DNA from: an uncultured Pelagibacteraceae bacterium
GTDB taxonomy: Bacteria; Pseudomonadota; Alphaproteobacteria; Pelagibacterales; Pelagibacteraceae
Reading direction: 5' to 3'
Length of the DNA: 64,000 nt
Assembly (NCBI GenBank): GCA_902539165.1
Contig: CACBHY010000002.1
Coordinates: forward strand, 62,001 to 126,000
A program made the position numbers and the translations under genes. Positions within the stretch are counted from its first letter, which is position 1, and each line of letters begins with the position of its first letter. The notes beneath the pieces are model-generated. The model worked only from the letters and a program-made list of their open reading frames with translations. It did no database searches and had not been told where the DNA came from. Of the stretch, positions 1 to 14,711 are shown piece by piece.

Positions 1-1658
1 TTGAGGGAAATATTTATTTTAGACAAGAAGGTAAAGGAATGTTGCTTGGAACTTATGAGCCAAAATCAACTCCTTGGAAAGTAGAAGGTACACCAATGAA
101 TTTTGGCCACGAGTTACTGGAGCCAAAGTTAGATAATATTGAAGATAGACTGGCAATTGGTTTTGAAAGAATGCCAGCGCTAGAACGTGCAGGTATTAAG
201 AATATAGTTAATGGACCTTTTACTTTTGGTCCAGATGGAAGTCCTCTGATTGGTCCAGTGCCTGGAATGAAGAATTATTGGGTTGCGGTTGGTGTTATGG
301 CTGGATTTTGCCAAGGTGGTGGTGTTGGTAAATGTATAGCAGAATGGATTATTGATGGTGAACCTTCAATTGATGTTTGGGCAATGGATGTTGCAAGATT
401 TGGAGATTATGCATCACCTCAATATGGAACAATAAAGTCCTCAGAAAATTATGAGAGAAGATTTATTATGACATTTCCAAATGAAACTTTGCCGAAAGGA
501 AGAAAACAAAAAACAACAGCACTTTATGATCGTTTTGTAAATCAAGGTGCTGTTATGGGTGATAGCTTTGGATTAGAAAATGTTTTGTGGTTTGCAAATA
601 ATAAAGCAGACGCCCATGAAGAGCCTACTATTAAAAGATCAAGATCTCATGATTATGTATCAAAAGAAGTTATTAATGTAAGAGAAAATGTTGGTTTAAT
701 AGAAGTTGCAAATTTTTCAAAACATGAGTTCAAAGGTCCTGATGCTAGAAAATTTTTAGATCATATAATGGCTGGAAGACTTCCAAAGCCAGGGAGAATA
801 TCTTTATCTCCAATGTTATCATATAGAGGAAAATTATGTGGTGATTTAACAGTGGCTTGTTTAGAGCAAAATGAATTCATGGTATTTGGATCTGGAGCTG
901 CTCAAGAAATGCATAGACGTTGGTTTGAAAGTCATTTAGATAAATTTAACTTAAGTTACTCCAATAGATCTGATGAGTATCATGGATTGTCTATTGCAGG
1001 ACCTAATTCAAGGAAAGTTTTAGAAAAAATTGTAAGAGATGATGTTTCAAATGAAAAATTTAAATTTAAAGATTCAAGGAGAATGTTTGTTGGTAGTGTT
1101 CCTGCAATAATAAATAGAATTTCATTTACAGGTGAACTTGGTTATGAAATTTATGTAGCGCCCCATTATCAATTAAAGCTTTATGAAGAATTAATGGAAG
1201 CTGGAAATGAATTTAATATTAAACCTTTTGGTGGAAGAGCATTAATGTCAATGAGGTTGGAGAAAAATTGGGGAGCTTGGACATTAGATTATCGACCAGA
1301 TTTTACTGCAAAAGAGACAGGCTTAGATGCTTTTATTAATTGGGATAAAGAGTTTATTGGTAAAGAAAGTGCACAAAAGGAAAATTCTTCAAATAAACTC
1401 ATACCATTAATTGTTGAAACAAATGATATTGACGTAACAAATAATGAAGCTGTCATTAATGGGGATCAAAGTATTGGTTACGTAACCTCAGGTGGTTTTG
1501 CACATTTTGTAAATAAAAGTGTAGCATTTACTTTTATTGATCAAAAAAACATTAATTCTGAAAATAAAATTCAAGTGGAGATAAACGGTGATTTATTTAA
1601 TTGTTCAATTATTAAAGAACCACTTTACGATCCAAGTGGTCAAAAAATGAGAAGCTAA
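1..1658 (+). CDS. Dimethylglycine/sarcosine dehydrogenase-like FAD oxidoreductase with C-terminal GcvT domain (5' partial)
   Basis: The frame is open from base 3, so the gene starts before the window. The visible part opens with the end of an FAD-dependent DAO-type amine oxidase fold (FRQEGKGM, then FGPDGSPLIGPVPG and VGVMAGFCQGGGVG, the FAD-closing segment). From about visible residue 160 it continues as a GcvT-like tetrahydrofolate-binding aminomethyltransferase domain (KPFGGRALMSMRLEKNWG near the end). Known relatives oxidise N-methyl groups of dimethylglycine or sarcosine, hand the one-carbon unit to tetrahydrofolate, and give electrons to ETF. Two sister genes lie in the window (11530 and 62453). 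Its stop overlaps the next start as TAATG, so it heads or joins the operon running to 6522. The exact methylated substrate cannot be read from sequence. Confidence 0.85.
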   Translation, partial: EGNIYFRQEGKGMLLGTYEPKSTPWKVEGTPMNFGHELLEPKLDNIEDRLAIGFERMPALERAGIKNIVNGPFTFGPDGSPLIGPVPGMKNYWVAVGVMAGFCQGGGVGKCIAEWIIDGEPSIDVWAMDVARFGDYASPQYGTIKSSENYERRFIMTFPNETLPKGRKQKTTALYDRFVNQGAVMGDSFGLENVLWFANNKADAHEEPTIKRSRSHDYVSKEVINVRENVGLIEVANFSKHEFKGPDARKFLDHIMAGRLPKPGRISLSPMLSYRGKLCGDLTVACLEQNEFMVFGSGAAQEMHRRWFESHLDKFNLSYSNRSDEYHGLSIAGPNSRKVLEKIVRDDVSNEKFKFKDSRRMFVGSVPAIINRISFTGELGYEIYVAPHYQLKLYEELMEAGNEFNIKPFGGRALMSMRLEKNWGAWTLDYRPDFTAKETGLDAFINWDKEFIGKESAQKENSSNKLIPLIVETNDIDVTNNEAVINGDQSIGYVTSGGFAHFVNKSVAFTFIDQKNINSENKIQVEINGDLFNCSIIKEPLYDPSGQKMRS

Positions 1659-2293
1659 TGGCTCAAAAAGACGTAGGAAACAAAATTCCAATTTATAAGC
1701 TTAAAACCACCGATGAAGTTATGAAGTATTACGATGAGTGGGGAGACAAAGACAAATATAATAAAGACATGGTTGACTGGAACTATACAGGACCTAAAGA
1801 GACCACAGAAATTTTTGATAAATATGAAAAGAATAAAGACATTTTAATATTTGATGCCGGATGTGGCACTGGTTTAGTTGGTTTAGAGCTAAAAAAATAT
1901 GGTTTTAAACATTTTCATGGAGCAGATTTATCACAAACCTTGTTAGACTCTGTTCCAAATAATCTTTATCAAAATTTAACAAAGGTTGATCTTAATAAAA
2001 AGATAGAAGCAAAAGATAATTCATATGATGCTGTAATGTGTGTGGGAACATTTACATTTGGTCATGTAAAACCAAATGCCTTAGATGAGTTTGTAAGAAT
2101 TACAAAAGCAGGTGGGTTAATTTGTTTTACTATTAACGAGGGTATTCACGAAGAATATGGGTTTGATAAAAAAATCACAAGTTTAAAAGAAAATAATAAA
2201 TGGAAAGAACTAGAGTTTTTCAAATCAGACTATATTGCTAGTAAAGATGTAAACGCTTGGCTAGGTTTGTACGAGGTTACGAAAAATGTATAG
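1658..2293 (+). CDS. Class I SAM-dependent methyltransferase (METTL27/WBSCR27-like)
   Basis: This 211-residue protein carries methyltransferase motif I as FDAGCGTGLVG (residues 65-75), an acidic ribose-binding position in HGADLSQ, and the post-I segment CVGTFTFGHV. The last is typical of METTL27/Williams-Beuren-type methyltransferases whose substrate is unknown. The ATG shares one base with the stop of the upstream dehydrogenase (TAATG), and its own end overlaps the next gene by 8 bases, so translational coupling is likely. The length suits a stand-alone small-molecule methyltransferase. Nothing in the sequence reveals the acceptor. The setting, next to a methyl-group oxidase and an organosulfur enzyme, suggests a small methylated metabolite, which is inference only. 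Confidence 0.8.
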   Translation: MAQKDVGNKIPIYKLKTTDEVMKYYDEWGDKDKYNKDMVDWNYTGPKETTEIFDKYEKNKDILIFDAGCGTGLVGLELKKYGFKHFHGADLSQTLLDSVPNNLYQNLTKVDLNKKIEAKDNSYDAVMCVGTFTFGHVKPNALDEFVRITKAGGLICFTINEGIHEEYGFDKKITSLKENNKWKELEFFKSDYIASKDVNAWLGLYEVTKNV

Positions 2294-2671: not shown

Positions 2672-3910
2672 ATGAAATTTAAAAGAAAAATCGCTCCAGA
2701 GATAAAATCAAGACAAAAATTTATTACTAAAAAAAGATTAAGAGAAGATGAGATTGATTTTGATAAGTTAAGATCATATCGTTTAGATAGAGTTAGAAAA
2801 GAATTAGTAAAAAATAATTTAGAGGCTTGTATTCTGTTTGATCCAGTAAATGTTCGTTATGCTTTAGACACTGTGAACATGAGTGTTTATAATATGCATA
2901 ATTTAACAAGATATTGTTTTGTACCAGTCAATGGTCCAACTATTCTTTATGAGTATTTTAATTGTGAGATATTATCTAAGCATTTAAATTTAATTGACGA
3001 AATAAGACCTGCAATCACATGGGACTACTTTAGTAATGGGGACCAAGCTAACAATCAATTATCAAAATGGATCAATGAAGTTAAAGATTTATCAAAGAAT
3101 TATTTTAAATCTAAAAAAATTGCAATTGATGTTCTTAATGGTCCTGCTGTTACAGCTTTAAATAAAGAAGGTATTGAAGTTATAGATGCGAAATTAATTT
3201 TAGAACAAGCAAGAGTAATAAAGTCTCCTGATGAAATAATTTGTATGAAAGCTGCAATAGAAGTTGCAGAAAAAGGTGTATCTAAGATGAGATCAGATCT
3301 TAAACCAGGAATGACAGAAGATGAATTGTGGTCAATTTTACATAAAACAAATATTGAAAATGGTGGCGAATGGATTGAGTGTAGGATTTTATCTTCTGGT
3401 GAAAGAACAAATCCATGGATGCAAGAGAGTAGCAATAAGGTAATGCAACAAGGAGAAATTGTTGCCTTTGACACTGATATGGTTGGTCCCTATGGATATT
3501 GTGCGGATATATCTAGAGCCTTTGTAGTCGGAAATGAATTTAATGATAAACAAAAAAAACTTTATTCAATGGCTAGAGATCAAATAGATCATAATTTTAG
3601 AACAATAAAACCAGGGATGAGCTTTAGAGAGTTTATTAAAAAATCTTGGGTTTTACCTGATGAATATTACGGAAACAGATATTCATGCATGGTTCATGGA
3701 ATTGGTTTGTGCGATGAGTGGCCTCAAATAAGATATCCAACTGATGGTGGTGAAGAAGGGGGAACTTTTGAGAAGAATATGACCATCACACTTGAGAGTT
3801 ATATTGGTAAAGTTGGTGGTAAAGAAGGTGTAAAACTTGAACAGCAGTACCTTGTTGGTGAAAATGGACTTGAATTGATGTCCCATCATCCGTTAGAAGA
3901 TATTCAATGA
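2672..3910 (+). CDS. dddP: M24-family metalloenzyme, probable DMSP lyase DddP
   Basis: This 412-residue protein has a creatinase/prolidase (M24) fold. Generic annotation would be Xaa-Pro peptidase, but the metal site has the DddP layout: D267, D269 and D279 (FDTDMVGPYGYCAD), H342, E375 and E390. It also has Y337 five residues before the His and D348 six residues after it (HGIGLCDEW). In characterised Ruegeria/Roseovarius DddP, as I recall it, the ligands are D295/D297/D307/H371/E406/E421 with Y366 and catalytic D377, so most spacings match exactly. Ordinary M24 peptidases use a D-x10-D pair and a different residue after the His. DddP cleaves dimethylsulfoniopropionate to dimethyl sulfide and acrylate in the cytoplasm. 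The next gene starts inside its end (4-base overlap). A related non-lyase M24 paralogue remains possible. Confidence 0.62.
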   Translation: MKFKRKIAPEIKSRQKFITKKRLREDEIDFDKLRSYRLDRVRKELVKNNLEACILFDPVNVRYALDTVNMSVYNMHNLTRYCFVPVNGPTILYEYFNCEILSKHLNLIDEIRPAITWDYFSNGDQANNQLSKWINEVKDLSKNYFKSKKIAIDVLNGPAVTALNKEGIEVIDAKLILEQARVIKSPDEIICMKAAIEVAEKGVSKMRSDLKPGMTEDELWSILHKTNIENGGEWIECRILSSGERTNPWMQESSNKVMQQGEIVAFDTDMVGPYGYCADISRAFVVGNEFNDKQKKLYSMARDQIDHNFRTIKPGMSFREFIKKSWVLPDEYYGNRYSCMVHGIGLCDEWPQIRYPTDGGEEGGTFEKNMTITLESYIGKVGGKEGVKLEQQYLVGENGLELMSHHPLEDIQ

Positions 3911-4317
3911 AGATTATTTTAGTAATGGGTTTACCAGGCGCCGGTAAAACTACTTTAGCCAATGAAATGGCACCAATGTTAAATGCAAAAAGATTAAATG
4001 CAGACGAAGTTAGAAAAGCTGCCAATGATTGGGATTTTTCAGAGGAGGGTAGAGTTAGACAAGCAAAAAGAATGGCAGAGGCCGCGTTAAAATTAAAAAA
4101 TGAAGGTCATTACGTTATAGCAGATTTTATTGCACCAACACCAGAAGCTAGAAACCTTTTTCCTGCAGATTATAGGGTTTGGGTGGATACAATTAAAGAA
4201 GGACGTTTTGAAGATACAAACCAGATGTTCGTTAATCCCAAAAAATTTGATTTTCATGTGACAACTCAAGATGCAAAAAAATGGGCACCTAAAATAATAC
4301 AGGAGATAAAAAAATGA
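3907..4317 (+). CDS. P-loop kinase of the adenylylsulfate-kinase (CysC-like) type
   Basis: The 136-residue protein begins with a Walker A loop, GLPGAGKT (residues 8-15). It then shows RLNADEVR and SEEGRVRQAKRM, which correspond to the LDGDNVR and FSEEDR segments of APS kinase, and VIADFIAPTPEAR, which corresponds to the VSFISPYR strand. APS kinase makes PAPS from adenylylsulfate and ATP. The protein is clearly shorter than standard CysC (about 175-200 residues) and lacks part of the lid region, so the substrate may differ. It overlaps the genes on both sides by 4 bases (ATGA-type junctions), and its direct partner is the nucleotidyltransferase downstream. A sulfotransferase that would use PAPS is encoded at 49605, far away. 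Confidence 0.65.
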   Translation: MKIILVMGLPGAGKTTLANEMAPMLNAKRLNADEVRKAANDWDFSEEGRVRQAKRMAEAALKLKNEGHYVIADFIAPTPEARNLFPADYRVWVDTIKEGRFEDTNQMFVNPKKFDFHVTTQDAKKWAPKIIQEIKK

Positions 4318-4692: not shown

Positions 4693-5544
4693 ATGAATGA
4701 TAGACTTAAAACTATAGTAGATCTTGACAATTATCCTATTCACGACCTTAACTCACCAAAAATAAAAAAATTAATTAATAGATGTAAAAACGAATTAGAA
4801 GAAAATAGCTGTTCCACAGTTTCAAATTTTATTTTACCACAGTCTTTAGAGATCATGAATTCTGAACTAGAAAAACAAATTGATGAAGTATACATGTCAA
4901 AAGAAAAAATTAATGCATATCTATATGCCAAAGATGATCCATCCTTACCGGAAGATCATCCTAAAAGAAATTTTATGAATAGATATAATGGATATCTAAA
5001 TTCTGATTGTTTCTCAAAAAGTTCTGAAATGAAATATCTGTATGAAACTGAAGAACTATTGAAATTTGTATCTGCTTGCTTGGGAGTTTTCCCAATATAT
5101 AGGTGGGCAGACCCATTAGCTTGTCATGCTTATAATGTTATGAAACCAGATGGAATTCTTCCATGGCATTTTGATAGTTGTGAATTTACATTGAGCTTAA
5201 TGATACAAAAACCAGAAAATGGTGGTGTTTTTGAGTATTGTCCAAATATTAGAGAACCAGGAAATGAAAACTTTGATGAGGTTAAAAAAGTTTTAGACGG
5301 AGATAGAGCGAGGGTAAAACAATTAAATTTGGAACCTGGCGATTTACAAATATTTAAAGGAAGATTTACATTGCATCGTGTAACTAAAGTAGAGGGTCAA
5401 AAATCAAGATATATGTGTATTCCAGCATATGTTTTAGATCCATGGAGAGTTAACACTCCAGAACATTCTAAGGCTATTTATGGTAAAGTTTTACCAATTC
5501 ATATAGAAAGAAATCAAATTAGATCTGATGGATTAGCTGATTAA
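4693..5544 (+). CDS. Fe(II)/2-oxoglutarate oxygenase of the BesD/HalD-like family, hydroxylase-type facial triad
   Basis: The 283-residue protein has a cupin-type non-heme iron site: H159-x-D161 in LPWHFDSCEF, distal H228 in FTLHRV, and R239 positioned to bind 2-oxoglutarate. The surrounding text (SLMIQKPENGGVFEYCPNIR) resembles the BesD/HalD amino-acid halogenase family. Halogenases replace the triad carboxylate with Gly or Ala, whereas this protein keeps Asp, so hydroxylation (or desaturation) is expected rather than chlorination. It follows the nucleotidyltransferase gene after 4 bases and precedes the crotonase by 1 base. The substrate is probably a free polar amino acid or similar small molecule by family analogy, but this is not shown here. 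Confidence 0.7.
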   Translation: MNDRLKTIVDLDNYPIHDLNSPKIKKLINRCKNELEENSCSTVSNFILPQSLEIMNSELEKQIDEVYMSKEKINAYLYAKDDPSLPEDHPKRNFMNRYNGYLNSDCFSKSSEMKYLYETEELLKFVSACLGVFPIYRWADPLACHAYNVMKPDGILPWHFDSCEFTLSLMIQKPENGGVFEYCPNIREPGNENFDEVKKVLDGDRARVKQLNLEPGDLQIFKGRFTLHRVTKVEGQKSRYMCIPAYVLDPWRVNTPEHSKAIYGKVLPIHIERNQIRSDGLAD

Positions 5545-5545
5545 A

Positions 5546-6325
5546 ATGACAAGTAACATTAAAATTAAAAAAATAACCAATGACATATCATCAATAATAA
5601 TTGATGAACAAAAAACCTATAATTCTCTATCATTTAAAAACCTTTCCGATTTATTAAAAGCGTTTAAAAAATTAGATGCCGACAAACAAGTAAAAGTAAT
5701 AATTTTAGAAGGTGCAGGAAAAGGTTTTAGTGCTGGACATAATTTAAAAGAAGTAAGGGGACTAAAGAAAAGAGATAAATACCTTAAACTATTTAACCTT
5801 TGCTCAAGTGTAATGACCCAAATCGTTGAGGGAAGAAAACCAGTTATTGCAAAAGTTCATGGCGCAGCTTTTGCTGCTGGCTGTCAATTAGTTGCAAGTT
5901 GTGATTTAGCATATAGCACCAAGGACGCTTTGTTTGCAACACCAGGAGTAAATATTGGTTTATTTTGCAGCACGCCTATGGTTGCTGTAAGTAGAAAAAT
6001 TAATCGAAAACCCATGATGAAAATGTTGTTAACAGGTGAACCAATCCATGCAAATTATGCTAAAGAGATTGGGTTAATTAATGATTGTTTTTTAAAATCA
6101 AAATTAAATTCAGAGGTTATAAAAGTTGCGAAAATAATTGCTTCTAAATCAAATCTAACAATAAAAATTGGAAAACAATCCTTTTATAAACAATTAGAAA
6201 TGCCACTAAGAAAAGCTTACGCCTATACAAGTAAAATGATGACAATTAATATGATGGCGATGGATGCAAAAGAGGGAATATCAGCGTTCCTTGAAAAAAG
6301 AAAACCTGTATGGAAAAATAAATAG
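5546..6325 (+). CDS. Enoyl-CoA hydratase/isomerase family protein (ECHDC3-like)
   Basis: This 259-residue protein has a crotonase fold. It shows GAGKGFSAGHNLKEV (first oxyanion-hole strand) and HGAAFAAGCQLVASCDLAY (second oxyanion glycine). The stretch ATPGVNIGLFCSTPMVAVSR matches the ECHDC3 subgroup almost word for word. The glutamate that acts as catalytic acid in true enoyl-CoA hydratases is replaced by a VNIG segment, so simple hydratase activity is doubtful. Other acyl-CoA chemistry (isomerase, thioesterase-like) is possible. A role in acrylate or methylmercaptopropionate-CoA processing next to the DddP-like gene is tempting, but the missing glutamate argues against direct equivalence with DmdD. 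It overlaps the next start by one base. Confidence 0.8.
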   Translation: MTSNIKIKKITNDISSIIIDEQKTYNSLSFKNLSDLLKAFKKLDADKQVKVIILEGAGKGFSAGHNLKEVRGLKKRDKYLKLFNLCSSVMTQIVEGRKPVIAKVHGAAFAAGCQLVASCDLAYSTKDALFATPGVNIGLFCSTPMVAVSRKINRKPMMKMLLTGEPIHANYAKEIGLINDCFLKSKLNSEVIKVAKIIASKSNLTIKIGKQSFYKQLEMPLRKAYAYTSKMMTINMMAMDAKEGISAFLEKRKPVWKNK

Positions 6326-6592: not shown

Positions 6593-7948
6593 ATGAGTGA
6601 ATCGTGTTGTGGACCTGGATATGTAAGCCCTTCTGCTGCTGTAAAAGCTCCAAATGAAAAGCTATTATATACAATAGCCATTTATACTGGAACTGGAATT
6701 CAAAAACCTGATTACTTGGCCACTATAGATGTAGATCCAAAAAGCCCAAATTATTCCAAGGTTATCCATCGTTTAGAAATGCCTGGTATTGGAGATGAAC
6801 TTCATCACATGGGATGGAATGCTTGTTCTTCATGTCATGGTGACGCTGAAATGAGTAGAAAATACCTTCTTGTTCCTGGTGTTAGATCAAATAATATCCA
6901 TGTAATTGATACCGCAACAGATCCTCACGCACCAAGAATACATAAAATAATTGAAGGTTCGGAAATCAAAGCAAAAACTAATTTATCTGGACCCCACACT
7001 GTTCATTGCTTAGGCTCCGAAATAATTATTTCATTCTTAGGAAATGCAAAGGGAGAGGCTCCGGGTGGATATTTACATTTAAATAAAGATTTTGAAATTG
7101 TTGGAAGATGGGAAAATTCCATGGGAGATATACCATTTAGTTATGATTTTTGGTATCAACCTAGACATAATGTAATGGTCAGCTCTGAGTGGGCAGCTCC
7201 AAATACTTTTATGCCAGGTTTTGATCTTGAGGAAGTAGGACATTTAAAATATGGACGTAGGTTACATATTTGGGATTTTAAGAAAAAGGAACCTATAGAA
7301 ACCATGTATCTTGGAGAAGATGGACTAATACCTTTAGAGGTAAAATTTCTGCATAACCCTGAAAGTAGTCATGGATTTTGTGGCGCAGCTTTAAGTGCAA
7401 ACGTAATTCATTTTTGGAAATCTAAAGAGGGTAAGTGGGAATGGGAAAAAATAATTGATGTTGATAATGAACCACATCCAGATTGGCCAATTCCTATACC
7501 AGGTGTTATGTCGGCAATACTTGTTTCAATGGATGATAAATATCTTTATTTAAATAATTGGCTTCACGGTGATATGAGACAGTATGATATTTCCGACCCA
7601 CATAAACCTAAATTAACTGGACAAGTTTGGATGGGTGGACTTTTAGGAAAAGCACCAGTTGTTAATGGAGTAAAGATTGCTGGTGGACCACAAATGTATC
7701 AACTGTCATTAGATGGCAAACGTATGTATGTAACAACTTCTTTATTCTCTACTTGGGATAATCAATTTTATCCTGAAATTAGAACACAAGGTGGAGCAAT
7801 GATAATGATTGACTGTGACGTTGAAAATGGCGGAATGAAAATTAATAAAGATTTTATAGTAGACTTTGGCAAAGAACCTAATGGTCCCAGCAGATGTCAC
7901 GAAAGTAGATATCCTGGTGGAGATTGTACCAGCGATATTTGGCTGTAA
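6593..7948 (+). CDS. mtoX: Methanethiol oxidase / selenium-binding protein 1 (SBP56) family
   Basis: The 451-residue protein aligns by eye along its length with human SELENBP1 (472 residues). Shared stretches include PDYLATIDVDPKSPNY, DELHHMGWNACSSCHGD (equivalent to the Cys57 region), YDFWYQPRHNVMVSSEWAAP, NWLHGDMRQYDISDP and the C-terminal RYPGGDCTSDIWL. Characterised bacterial members (MtoX) are copper-dependent and oxidise methanethiol to formaldehyde, hydrogen sulfide and hydrogen peroxide. The N-terminus has no clear Sec signal. The known Hyphomicrobium enzyme is periplasmic, so localisation here is open. The gene is followed by a ferredoxin gene through a TAATG overlap. Methanethiol is a DMSP product, which fits the rest of the window. 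Confidence 0.85.
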   Translation: MSESCCGPGYVSPSAAVKAPNEKLLYTIAIYTGTGIQKPDYLATIDVDPKSPNYSKVIHRLEMPGIGDELHHMGWNACSSCHGDAEMSRKYLLVPGVRSNNIHVIDTATDPHAPRIHKIIEGSEIKAKTNLSGPHTVHCLGSEIIISFLGNAKGEAPGGYLHLNKDFEIVGRWENSMGDIPFSYDFWYQPRHNVMVSSEWAAPNTFMPGFDLEEVGHLKYGRRLHIWDFKKKEPIETMYLGEDGLIPLEVKFLHNPESSHGFCGAALSANVIHFWKSKEGKWEWEKIIDVDNEPHPDWPIPIPGVMSAILVSMDDKYLYLNNWLHGDMRQYDISDPHKPKLTGQVWMGGLLGKAPVVNGVKIAGGPQMYQLSLDGKRMYVTTSLFSTWDNQFYPEIRTQGGAMIMIDCDVENGGMKINKDFIVDFGKEPNGPSRCHESRYPGGDCTSDIWL

Positions 7949-8310
7949 TGCAAATTAAAATCGCGAACCGTAAAAATATTGTTTATAAAGTTTCGGGACG
8001 AATGCCCTTACTTCAAGAATTGAGAGAACAAGGAGTAGATTTACCTTACGGATGTCAGTACGGTGGATGCATTACTTGTGCAGCCAAACTAATTGAAGGT
8101 GAAGTAGATCAACGTTCTCAAGTGGCATTAAATAATCGTCAGATAAATGATGGCTACGTAATATTGTGTGTTGCAAGACCAAAAACAGATTGTACAATTG
8201 AGATTGGAGTTGAAAGTCATGATAAACTTTATCGAAATCCTTTTCTTGACCCACTTGCACCTCATGAGTTAAAAGCTGATATAGCTACTCAAAAAAAATC
8301 AAAAAAATGA
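7948..8310 (+). CDS. 2Fe-2S ferredoxin (plant/phenol-hydroxylase type)
   Basis: I place the start at the ATG that overlaps the methanethiol oxidase stop (TAATG), giving 120 residues; an upstream in-frame ATG at 7924 lies inside the previous gene. The cluster motif is CQYGGCITC, i.e. C-x4-C-x2-C, with the fourth cysteine in VILCVARP, exactly the plant-type 2Fe-2S arrangement. The C-terminal tail (about 20 residues, lysine-rich) is extra. Such ferredoxins pass single electrons to or from oxygenases and reductases. Coupling to the methanethiol oxidase gene suggests a partner role, which is not an established feature of MtoX enzymes. It overlaps the next gene by 4 bases. Confidence 0.85.
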   Translation: MQIKIANRKNIVYKVSGRMPLLQELREQGVDLPYGCQYGGCITCAAKLIEGEVDQRSQVALNNRQINDGYVILCVARPKTDCTIEIGVESHDKLYRNPFLDPLAPHELKADIATQKKSKK

Positions 8311-11529: not shown

Positions 11530-13962
11530 ATGAAAACAAAAACTAAAGTTGTGGTAGTTGGCGGTGGTGTAGTTGGGGTTAGTGCTCTTTATCATCTAGC
11601 AAAAAAAGGATGGTCAGATGTTGTTCTTGTTGAAAGAAAAGAATTAACTTCAGGGTCAACATGGCATGCTGCTGGATTACTTCCTTTGTTTAACATGAGC
11701 TATTCGGTAGGACAACTTCATAAATATGCAGTCAATCTTTATAAAACTTTAGAAGAAGAAACTGGAAAAAATGTTGGATTTAGTGTTGTTTCAAATATTA
11801 GATTAGCAAGTAACAAAGATAGAATGGATGAGTACCATCAATATGCGGGTGTTGCACAAACTATTGGGGTAGATGTAAAATTTCTAACACCAGATCAAGT
11901 CAAAGAAATTTGGCCTTTATGTCATACAGATGATTTGGTTGGTGCAATTCAACATCCAGAGGATGGATATATTCAACCAGCCGATCTAACTCAGGCTCTA
12001 GCAACTGGTGCGAGGAATAGAGGAGCAGAAATTTATAGAAATACAGCTGTGTTATCTATGAAACAGACAAAAGAAGGATGGGTTGTTGAAACTGATAAAG
12101 GTTCAATAGAATGTGAACATGTTATTACATGTTCAGGAAATTTTGCAAGACAAACTGGCGAGATGGTTGGATTAGATATTCCAGTAATACCTGTTGAGCA
12201 CCAATACATTGTAACGGAACCACACCCCGAAATTCAAAAAAGAAAAAAAAATGGTCTTCCTGAAATGGGAGTGTTAAGAGATAGTGATAGCAGATGGTAT
12301 ATGAGGGAAGAAGCGGGAGGATTAATTCTTGGCCCTTATGAAGATGGTGCTCCAGCATGTTATGTAGAAGGACCGTCAAAAAATTCCGAGTATGAATTAT
12401 TTCAAGAGGATTTAGATAGATTAGCACCTCATATAGAAGGCGCTATTCATCGTGTTCCTGCTTTTGGAGAAGTGGGTGTTAAAAAAGTCTATAACGGTGC
12501 AATCTGTTATACACCAGATGGAAACCCAATTGTAGGACCTGCTTGGGGACTTAAAAATTTTTGGATTAATGAAGGGCATAGTTTTGGAATTACAGCTGCC
12601 GGTGGAGCTGGCTGGCAATTAGCAGAGTGGATTGTAGATGGAGAACCAACTATCGACATGCTTGGAGTTGAACCAAGACGATATGGAAATTATGCAACTA
12701 AATCATATTTAAAAGCTAAAAATGAAGAGGCTTATAGTCATGTTTTTATTACTCATTATCCCGATGAAGAAAGACCAGCTGCGAGACCATTAAGGACAGC
12801 ACCGTGTTATGAGAGAATGAAAAAACTAGGAGCAGTTTTTGGTCAAAAATTTGGATGGGAAAGACCAAACTTTTTTGCAACTGACGGAATGGAACAAAAA
12901 GATGATTGGTCATTTAGAAGATCAAAATGGTTTGATGCTATTAAAAAAGAATGTCAAAATGTAAAAGAAAACGTTGGTCTTTTAGATATGACAGCATTTG
13001 CTAAATGCAGAATTAAAGGACCTAAAGCAGAGGAATTTTTAGATTATTTAGTAGCGAATAAGCTGCCTAAAAAGATTGGTAGGATTAACTTATGTCATGC
13101 TCTTAATACAAAAGGAGGTGTACACTCGGAATTCACAATCATGAAGGAAGCAGAAAATTGTTACTATCTTGTTTCTGCAGGAGCAAATTTAAGATTAGAC
13201 CATGATTGGATACAAAAATGGATGCCAGATGATGGTTCAGTAATTTTTGAAGATTTAACAAATAGTACAGGTGTTTTGGTTGTAGCTGGACCAAAATCAA
13301 GACAACTAATGAAAAAAGTCTCAACAGACGATTTTTCAAATGAAAACTTTAAGTGGTTAACCGCCAAAAAGGTAGATGTGGGGTATGCACCTGTTAATGC
13401 TATGAGAGTAAATTTTGTTGGCGAATTGGGTTGGGAACTGCATCATCCAATTGAATATCAAAACCATATATTTGATAAATTGATGGAAGCTGGAAAAGAT
13501 TTAGGTATTAAACCATTCGGAATTAGAGCAATGAATAGTTTGAGACTTGAAAAGTCATATAAGTTGGTTGGTACTGAGCTATCAATAGAATATTCGCCAT
13601 ATGAGTCGGGCTTAGACAGATTTATACATCCTAATAAAGGAAATTTTATAGGATTAGATGCCCTAAATAAATGGAGAGAAAAAGGTTTTGATAATAAATT
13701 AGTTACCCTAGAGGTTCATAATACCAAAGATGCTGATGTTCTAGGAAATAATCCTATTTTAAAAGATGGAAAAGTTGTTGGAAGAGCTACCGGTGGAGAA
13801 TTTGGTTTTAGATTAGATAAGTCAATAGCGTTAGCAATGGTTAAACCAGATTGCTCTAATGTGGGCGACAAATTACAAGTTGATATTTTAGGAGAAATGT
13901 ACGACGCTACTATCTTGGGTGAGAGTCCATATGATACAGAAAACAATTTATTGAGAGCTTAA
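11530..13962 (+). CDS. Dimethylglycine/sarcosine dehydrogenase-type FAD oxidoreductase with GcvT domain
   Basis: The 810-residue protein has the full architecture of mitochondrial and bacterial dimethylglycine dehydrogenase. It begins with an N-terminal dinucleotide loop [15 protein letters not shown], followed by [11 protein letters not shown] with the histidine that carries covalent FAD in characterised relatives. A DAO substrate domain extends to about residue 400, and a GcvT-type folate domain from about 440 to the end ([18 protein letters not shown]). It demethylates an N-methyl compound, giving methylene-tetrahydrofolate. The next three genes encode EtfB, EtfA and ETF-quinone oxidoreductase, the expected electron path, and the junction with etfB is TAATG. 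Substrate choice among dimethylglycine, sarcosine and other methylamines is open. Confidence 0.88.
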
Positions 13963-14711
13963 TGAAAATCTTAGTCGCTGTAAAAAGAGTAATAGATTAT
14001 AACGTTCAGATAAGAATTAAAGAGGATGGGTCAGGTGTGGTTACAGACAATGTTAAAATGTCAACCAATCCACCAGACGATAATGCAATAGAGGAAGCGG
14101 TAAAAATTAAAGAGGCCGGTAAAGCAACAGAGGTTGTTGCTGTAACAATTGGAGAAGAAAAAGCTCAAGAAACTGTGAGAAAAGCTTTAGCAGTTGGTGC
14201 AGACAGAGGAATTCATGTTAAAGTAGATAATAGTCTTGAACCTTTGGCTGTTTCTAAAATTTTAGAGAAAATTGTAGATAAAGAGAAACCCGACTTAGTC
14301 TTTATGGGAAAACAAGCAATTGATGATGATTGCAATCAAACTGGTCAAATGTTAAGCGCACTATTAAATTGGCCGCAAGCAACTTTTGCATCTAAAATTG
14401 AAGTTAAGGAAAAAAGTTTAGAAGTTACAAGAGAAATAGATGAGGGATTAGAAACAATAGAAATTAATGTTCCAGCAATTGTAACCTGTGATTTAAGATT
14501 AAACGAACCAAGGTATGCTTCATTACCAAATATAATGAAAGCCAAAAAGAAACCCATCGAAGAAATTAGCGCTGCAGATTTAGGTGTAGACACTGCTCCC
14601 CGGGTTGAGCAAATAAAAGTAGAAGAACCACCAAAGAGAAAAGCAGGTATAAAGGTTGCCAATGTTGCAGAATTAGTTCAAAAATTAAAAAATGAGGCAA
14701 AGGTTATTTAA
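13962..14711 (+). CDS. etfB: Electron transfer flavoprotein, beta subunit
   Basis: The 249-residue product starts [16 protein letters not shown] and contains [20 protein letters not shown] and [15 protein letters not shown], all classical EtfB segments. EtfB binds AMP and, with EtfA, forms the FAD-carrying heterodimer that collects electrons from flavin dehydrogenases. It is translationally coupled on both sides (TAATG at 13960 and 14709), so subunits are probably made in equal amounts. The upstream dimethylglycine-type dehydrogenase is the likely donor, though fatty acyl-CoA dehydrogenases elsewhere could share it. Confidence 0.95.

Follow-up and report, generated by a model that had tools for sequence, protein, structure and literature searches.

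The M24-family gene at positions 2672-3910 of the DNA studied here, which comes from an uncultured Pelagibacteraceae (SAR11) bacterium, a member of a very common marine group, raises the question of whether its product is the DMSP lyase DddP or a relative that acts on another substrate. Dimethyl sulfide (DMS) is a climate gas, and dddP ranks with the DMS-producing genes that have been surveyed most often in the ocean. Should the SAR11 protein cleave DMSP, these SAR11 cells would have a source of DMS in addition to the cupin lyases, next to a DMSP-type transporter. We conclude that the protein is DddP-like and probably an onium-osmolyte enzyme, not a proven DddP.

The M24 protein and its nearest relatives

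The window (the whole stretch of DNA analysed, 64,000 nucleotides long) spans bases 62001-126000 of contig 2 of a 1.21-Mb genome. The feature under study was defined from its open reading frame and a residue alignment:

2672-3910, plus strand: DddP-like M24 metalloenzyme, 412 aa, ATG start

The M24 domain of the protein scores 114.8 bits (Pfam), and its Creatinase_N-type N-domain scores exactly at the Pfam cut-off. By alignment, the metal ligands are D267, D269, D279, H342, E375, and E390, and Y337 and D348 are the equivalents of DddP's proposed catalytic residues; each of the eight was found where the original prediction had placed it. The protein is predicted to bind two metals. Membership of the M24 family, the six metal ligands, the active-site Tyr and Asp, and the N-domain motif NMxxxNxHN are common to the SAR11 protein and to DddP (RlDddP, 4rzy, and RdDddP, 4b28). 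In the order D267, D269, D279, Y337, H342, D348, E375, and E390, the counterparts in RlDddP are D295, D297, D307, Y366, H371, D377, E406, and E421, read from entry 4rzy, which we take to be RlDddP (it is labelled 'Peptidase M24' in the PDB, with matching residue numbers). In RdDddP (entry 4b28), six of these positions are named as metal ligands, and a catalytic role is proposed for the other two (PMC4108388).

The top solved relatives of the protein are the DddP structures, at 289 and 276 bits, and the next M24 structure scores 70.5 bits. With phmmer, the E-value is 4.5e-85 to 4rzy as against 1.1e-18 to 2zsg, the best other M24, a difference so large that the resemblance to DddP is not a matter of chance. 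At the same time, the curated DddP model (NCBIfam NF043017) gives the protein 353.9 bits, below its cut-off of 600, and identity to RdDddP is 34.9% over 384 aligned columns. Identity is higher to the HIMB59-like protein of genome G030 (53%) and, among the matches listed, to the nearest relatives outside SAR11 and the HIMB59-like group (47-49%). Genes 87-97% identical to the M24 gene occur at 80 loci (the best 80 of 238 relatives). A search of 50,697 phage records for signs of a phage origin gave no match at E <= 1e-10. AlphaFold2, run on 15 SAR11 M24 sequences, gave a mean pLDDT of 43.5, and the model was not used.

Creatinase and ectoine hydrolase are metal-free M24s in which the metal ligands have been lost. 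Both identities were rejected, since the SAR11 protein keeps all of its ligands; its scores against ectoine hydrolase models are at most 41 bits. M24B prolidases and aminopeptidase P share the canonical metal ligands and the M24 domain with it, but those compared differ at the positions of D269 and D348. The original prediction had stated that ordinary prolidases lack the third Asp and the Asp six residues after the His, and this was borne out in the M24s compared: neither of the two outgroup rows has the set, and in 2zsg the positions of D269 and D348 are occupied by Gly and His. In DddP, two substrate-binding His residues of M24 enzymes are replaced by an Asp and a Phe, the latter given unnumbered (PMC5395565). 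The 2zsg His positions align with D377 and F278 of RlDddP and with D348 and M250 of the SAR11 protein, which thus has the Asp of the DddP-type replacement, but Met250 instead of the Phe.

Residue pattern and phylogenetic placement

Residues were counted on 111 of 113 aligned proteins (rows L004 and L165 were dropped from counts and trees), nine of them SAR11 homologues, the number that also entered the trees. The eight-residue set is complete in all 36 rows of the DddP clade, 58 of the 61 other DddP-like proteins, 3/3 HIMB59-like proteins, and 9/9 SAR11 proteins, and in neither of the two outgroup M24s. The set therefore splits DddP-like proteins from the peptidase-type M24s compared. It cannot tell DMSP lyases from paralogues, because those 58 relatives outside the DddP clade share it, and for the same reason it was rejected as proof of a DMSP lyase; it is also found in paralogues inside single genomes. 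The DddP-type layout that the original prediction had seen is thus real, in that the set is complete and the nearest solved relatives are DddPs, but it is a common property of a large subfamily of paralogues.

The size of this subfamily is apparent from the curated DddP model, which matches 136 of 385 genomes of the window's class at E <= 0.001, 12 of which pass the curated cut-off, and 147 of 398 genomes from the phylum, with 17 passing. Several genomes have more than one DddP-like copy (e.g., four in G086, at 370-391 bits). DddP-like paralogues of the 'Xaa-Pro peptidase family' in Alpha-, Beta-, and Gammaproteobacteria carry the eight-residue set in 58 of 61 rows, as the SAR11 protein does. 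Among the 15 plasmid relatives listed, six are annotated 'Xaa-Pro peptidase family protein', one DddP, and eight have no annotation. The expectation that automatic annotation would name a peptidase agrees with these six and with the failure to reach the DddP-model cut-off.

Two further positions set the SAR11 proteins apart. The position of RlDddP W95 holds Trp in 36/36 DddP-clade and 58/61 other DddP-like rows, Phe in the HIMB59-like proteins and in two of those 61 rows, and Tyr (Y73) in SAR11. The F278 position holds Phe in 34/36 and 53/61 rows, respectively, Met in four of the 61, and Met (M250) in SAR11. In DddP the sulfonium is held by a Trp and a Tyr. The SAR11 protein keeps the Tyr, and the Trp, if we infer correctly that it is W95, is replaced by Tyr73; we found no paper that discusses Trp95 of DddP. 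Both Y73 and M250 may bear on substrate binding.

In a careful tree of 91 rows, the SAR11 proteins group with the three HIMB59-like proteins (100/99), and both solved DddPs lie in a separate clade of 28 rows (100/99). A quick tree of 111 rows gave the same placement; it keeps the 20 further rows omitted from the careful tree, namely 16 from well-sampled groups (including L124 and L126, which are not near-duplicates) and four long branches. When SAR11 and the HIMB59-like proteins are constrained to join the DddP clade, the log-likelihood drops by 48 units (AU p = 3e-4, for groups named after the tree was seen); with SAR11 alone it drops by 89, partly because the link to HIMB59 is then broken. 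Letter make-up is unusual in the SAR11 rows and in part of the HIMB59-like ones, which is a known cause of error in trees and could pull these rows together. Phylogeny had been put forward as a check on the DddP assignment, and on this point the result goes against the original prediction, as far as the tree can tell: the M24 protein falls outside the DddP clade, in a tree in which RlDddP and RdDddP are the DddPs placed by name and the fungal and Oceanimonas DddPs are absent.

The gene island and its conservation

The other genes of the island, and two upstream genes located in the assembly, are as follows:

1-1658, plus strand: 3' part of a DMGDH-GcvT fusion (801 aa; FAD oxidoreductase and aminomethyltransferase) that starts 748 bases before the window
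1658-2293, plus strand: SAM-dependent methyltransferase, 211 aa
2286-2654, plus strand: small SET-domain protein, 122 aa, optional (8/46 full-length SAR11 loci)
3907-4317, plus strand: small P-loop kinase (APS-kinase/AAA_33-like), overlapping the M24 stop codon
4314-4688, plus strand: small nucleotidyltransferase (cytidylyltransferase-like)
4693-5544, plus strand: 2-oxoglutarate/Fe(II) oxygenase, HalD-related, with an HxD motif (HFD) read from the sequence
5546-6325, plus strand: enoyl-CoA hydratase/isomerase (crotonase) family protein, which ends the tightly packed run
L184:5213-6253 (G000:C2:60213-61253), just upstream of the window: BHMT-like methyltransferase, island type
L300:16645-18003 (G000:C2:54645-56003): DmdA/GcvT-like protein, 452 aa, 233.5 bits with the DmdA model (cut-off 410)

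From the end of the DMGDH-GcvT gene (1658) to the crotonase gene (6325), the genes overlap or are separated by no more than 17 bases. The 2-oxoglutarate oxygenase is probably a hydroxylase, because its motif is HxD (HFD). Upstream of the window, the BHMT-like methyltransferase and a Rieske oxygenase are encoded on the same strand, and a divergent group is made up of genes for an OpuAC-type, DmpX-like binding protein (G000:C2:57731-58741), a permease, and a protein with weak similarity to MTHFR (24.7 bits against a cut-off of 24), followed by the DmdA/GcvT-like gene. The last of these adjoins the MTHFR-like and DmpX-like genes; of 12 other SAR11 regions inspected, with or without M24, 11 have it next to the MTHFR-like gene. 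A probable DmdA (388.6 bits against the cut-off of 410) is encoded in the genome from which the window comes, and no match to a cupin DMSP-lyase family was found there. An SBP56/methanethiol-oxidase-like protein (6593-7948) was considered as a part of the island and rejected, as it occurs in 3/46 loci, scores 161 bits against 650, and is separated by a gap of 267 bases. Together with a 2Fe-2S ferredoxin, this SBP56/MtoX-like protein occupies 6593-8310 after the island, a pair that was seen in three of the 46 full-length SAR11 loci. Further downstream, at 11530-14711, another DMGDH-GcvT-like protein (810 aa) and then an ORF resembling an electron-transfer flavoprotein were recognised by eye.

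Three of the partners were compared with characterized proteins. The Rieske protein has a carnitine monooxygenase as its nearest solved relative (108 bits). The BHMT-like proteins of SAR11 are of two types, 45-51% identical, and the Zn cysteines are kept in both; the second type is found in genomes such as G396, and both types co-occur in 6/201 genomes. Of the aromatic-cage residues of human BHMT, Y77 survives in the island type alone, and neither SAR11 type has W44 or Y160. The SAR11-type Bhmt is said to keep the betaine-binding residues (PMC12478193), but neither type fits this fully in our alignment, and either may be SAR11_1173. The island binding protein scores 216 bits against 7yle and 29 bits against the next structure. 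Entry 7YLE was deposited as RnDmpX with DMSP (PMC10030565), and its chain carries exactly the eight pocket letters reported there. At least seven of these eight DmpX pocket residues are kept in 15/15 aligned SAR11 binding-protein rows (residue list from PMC10030565).

The island is well conserved among the close relatives of the window. Ten families (binding protein, Rieske, BHMT, DMGDH, SAM methyltransferase, M24, kinase, nucleotidyltransferase, 2-oxoglutarate oxygenase, and crotonase) were detected in 46/46 full-length SAR11 loci (17.2 kb; 46 of the 80 loci fetched, close relatives from the best 80 of 238), and the permease in 45 of them. The Rieske gene varies in position: it is found at the front of the island or else separates the SAM methyltransferase gene from M24. 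At a further, more distant locus (G388), the 2-oxoglutarate oxygenase was not detected. The kinase gene directly follows M24 in 79/80 loci, the remaining one being a contig end, and the kinase and nucleotidyltransferase are also kept in three SAR11 genomes without M24.

Across the genus, M24 is present in 57 of 201 genomes, about a quarter, twice as fragments, most of these genomes being incomplete. The island-type BHMT (partial copies counted) occurs in 53 of the 57 M24 carriers as against 5 of the 144 other genomes (p = 1e-37), on the same contig at a distance of 2.4-5.9 kb in 46 carriers and on another contig in seven. Contig breaks could account for the M24-only genomes G437, G426, and G459 and for the BHMT-only genomes G481 and G422; G414 and the three genomes G485, G566, and G492 make up the rest of the exceptions. 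For the DmpX-like binding protein, the counts are 49/57 carriers against 15/144 others. Five genomes with the binding protein but without M24 were inspected. In G565 and G527 the transporter is still present, as are the SAM methyltransferase, kinase, nucleotidyltransferase, and crotonase, but there is no Rieske, BHMT, DMGDH, M24, or 2-oxoglutarate oxygenase gene; G452 has the Rieske and 2-oxoglutarate oxygenase genes and is without BHMT, DMGDH, and M24; in G504 the contig ends, and in G536 the binding protein is located elsewhere. BHMT, DMGDH, and M24 are thus jointly missing in all three informative genomes (G565, G527, and G452) and, because the transporter, SAM methyltransferase, kinase, and crotonase can persist without M24, the link of M24 with BHMT and DMGDH is closer than that with the transporter.

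Related neighbourhoods also occur outside SAR11. BHMT-like genes lie near M24 in two of the three HIMB59-like loci, and a homologue of the SAM methyltransferase (45%) lies beside M24 in one, that of G030. The G030 locus (L185:10916-13041) has two tandem BHMT-like genes beside M24 and the SAM methyltransferase, with metK and ahcY nearby. Genes for MttB, BHMT, DMGDH, Rieske, or OpuAC proteins lie within 8 kb of a DddP-like M24 in 19/51 regions, or 16/47 when the SAR11 and HIMB59-like regions are left out, as against 4/21 regions for the DddP clade and 0/20 for another M24 family used as a control; the difference between 4/21 and 19/51 is not significant (p = 0.17). These regions, 3 to 20 kb long and some sharing a genome, were taken from match lists before their neighbours were viewed, and four of the 51 are from SAR11 or HIMB59-like genomes. 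Of 178 matching plasmid records, six loci were opened: in Rhizobium, Paraburkholderia, and Caballeronia, M24 lies near genes for Rieske proteins and reductases, in one locus each close to a 4-hydroxyproline epimerase gene or a pyrroline-5-carboxylate reductase gene; the Parasedimentitalea M24 lies beside trimethylamine methyltransferase and sarcosine oxidase genes; and at the Pseudomonas and Oceanisphaera loci no Rieske/reductase or methyltransferase-type gene was found as an immediate neighbour. The common theme of the neighbourhoods is the removal of methyl groups from onium compounds. The DddP-like paralogues thus resemble the SAR11 protein in having onium demethylation genes nearby at part of their loci, and the SAR11/HIMB59-like branch differs from them in the aromatic change at W95 and in having BHMT-like partners instead of MttB or Rieske-reductase pairs. 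In three genomes from another class of the phylum (G869, G656, and G863; loci L257, L258, and L259), a DddP-like M24 gene follows closely after a 2-oxoglutarate oxygenase gene whose product is related to that at 4693-5544 (216-231 bits).

Candidate roles of the SAR11 protein

We lean, with modest confidence, towards a DddP-like M24 enzyme, outside the clade of the solved DddPs, that serves an accessory island through which a methylated onium osmolyte is imported and degraded. The basis of this reading is the relationship to DddP, the active-site set, the tree placement, the neighbourhood, the co-inheritance with BHMT, and the DMSP-type cage of the binding protein. Against it, the neighbourhood is guilt by association, and MttB-rich genomes may give chance neighbours. 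To our knowledge, the kinase, nucleotidyltransferase, 2-oxoglutarate oxygenase, and crotonase fit in no known onium pathway. The osmolyte, a betaine-type compound or DMSP, would be taken up by the DmpX-like transporter, and methyl groups would be stripped by the BHMT-like, Rieske, and DMGDH-GcvT proteins and passed to homocysteine, formaldehyde, or folate. In the M24 enzyme, the metal pair may hold the substrate carboxylate, with D348, together with Y337, acting as the base that removes a proton, and the onium substrate or its demethylated product might then be cleaved by beta-elimination or hydrolysed.

That the protein is a physiological DMSP lyase, so that DddP activity is not confined to the Roseobacter-centred clade and, in these SAR11 genomes, takes the place of the cupin lyases DddK/DddQ, with DMSP arriving through a DmpX-type transporter, seems to us possible but on the doubtful side. 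All metal and catalytic residues are kept, and the adjacent binding protein has the DMSP cage of DmpX; the DmpX of HTCC7211, a possible orthologue, binds DMSP with a Kd of 100 nM (PMC10030565). Moreover, the fungal enzyme FgDddP is 32% identical to RdDddP, yet E. coli carrying it released DMS (PMC4108388), so that DMSP activity is conceivable at the distance of the SAR11 protein. In other respects the latter is unlike DddP: it is 35% identical, reaches 353.9 of 600 bits with the curated model, lies outside the clade of both solved enzymes (AU p = 3e-4), has Tyr for Trp95 and Met for Phe278, and occurs in a different gene context, in which it tracks BHMT and DMGDH more closely than DmpX. Matches to cupin DMSP-lyase families were found in 0/57 M24 carriers as against 20/144 other genomes (p = 0.0012, lineage uncontrolled), but in 17 of these 20 genomes none is over the Pfam cut-off, and in three it is. 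This exclusion could reflect functional replacement, lineage, or incomplete genomes; it was set aside as strong evidence for a DMSP lyase and kept as weak. The context points to methylated-onium osmolyte metabolism and neither proves nor excludes DMSP.

The remaining alternatives retain the hydrolytic chemistry of the M24 family. Hydrolysis of an osmolyte conjugate at an amide bond or a bond like it, with the freed betaine or N-methyl amino acid feeding the neighbouring demethylases, appears improbable, and we know of no such conjugate. It would agree with C-N hydrolysis as the normal chemistry of M24 enzymes (PMC5395565) and with the Rieske-reductase-M24 groups found near 4-hydroxyproline epimerase or pyrroline-5-carboxylate reductase genes, but the DddP-type Asp takes the place of a substrate-binding His of M24 peptidases (PMC5395565). 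An ordinary M24B dipeptidase or aminopeptidase is highly improbable. The M24 domain, the Creatinase_N domain at its cut-off, and the plasmid relatives annotated as Xaa-Pro peptidases would suit it; however, the His pair that binds peptides in M24B enzymes is replaced by Asp348 and Met250 (2zsg alignment), the extra ligand D269 is absent from 2zsg and the outgroup rows, matches to peptidases in the PDB reach at most 70.5 bits as against 289 for DddP, and RlDddP itself is reported in a review to have no measurable Val-Pro activity (PMC5395565). A betaine-type substrate other than DMSP, whether in the onium-osmolyte island or in conjugate hydrolysis, is a serious possibility, though we place it somewhat short of an even chance.

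The island that we favour as the setting of the M24 enzyme resembles the known SAR11 glycine-betaine pathway (BHMT SAR11_1173, DMGDH, and SARDH; PMC3160333, PMC12478193) in having BHMT-like and DMGDH-GcvT genes near an OpuAC-type binding protein. The SAR11 glycine-betaine genes, DmpX, and DddP are already known. For an M24-BHMT-DMGDH island, no description was found in the available text of PMC12478193, PMC10030565, PMC4108388, PMC3160333, PMC8520302, PMC7039863, PMC6309047, PMC10686828, and PMC5395565, nor among the titles and abstract openings listed from the DddP, SAR11, M24/creatinase, BHMT, MttB, and proline-betaine/Rieske literature, of which few subscription journals were covered; the main texts of PMC3160333 and PMC12478193 do not contain the word 'peptidase', and M24 is not so named there. 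A bolder form of the island reading, which we hold only tentatively and consider unlikely, is that of a self-contained island in 57/201 sampled genomes of the genus in which DmpX-type import of DMSP or an onium analogue, methionine synthesis by the BHMT family, transfer to folate by DMGDH-GcvT, and cleavage of the skeleton by M24 make up an undescribed onium-lyase branch. Such a branch would couple osmolyte cleavage to methionine supply in SAR11 cells, which are reported to be without MetE and MetH (PMC12478193).

The placement also bears on dddP surveys, in which genes are called by E-value, at 1e-30 in metagenomes (PMC8520302) and below 1e-70 in genomes (PMC5395565). Because the SAR11 protein has an E-value of 1.2e-105 with the DddP model and so passes these thresholds, it and its paralogues could inflate dddP counts. 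The DddP of sediments is attributed chiefly to Pseudomonas and Mesorhizobium (PMC7039863). DddP has been listed among the enzymes of Pelagibacterales on the basis of model hits (PMC8520302), and the SAR11 M24 may therefore have been counted as DddP before.
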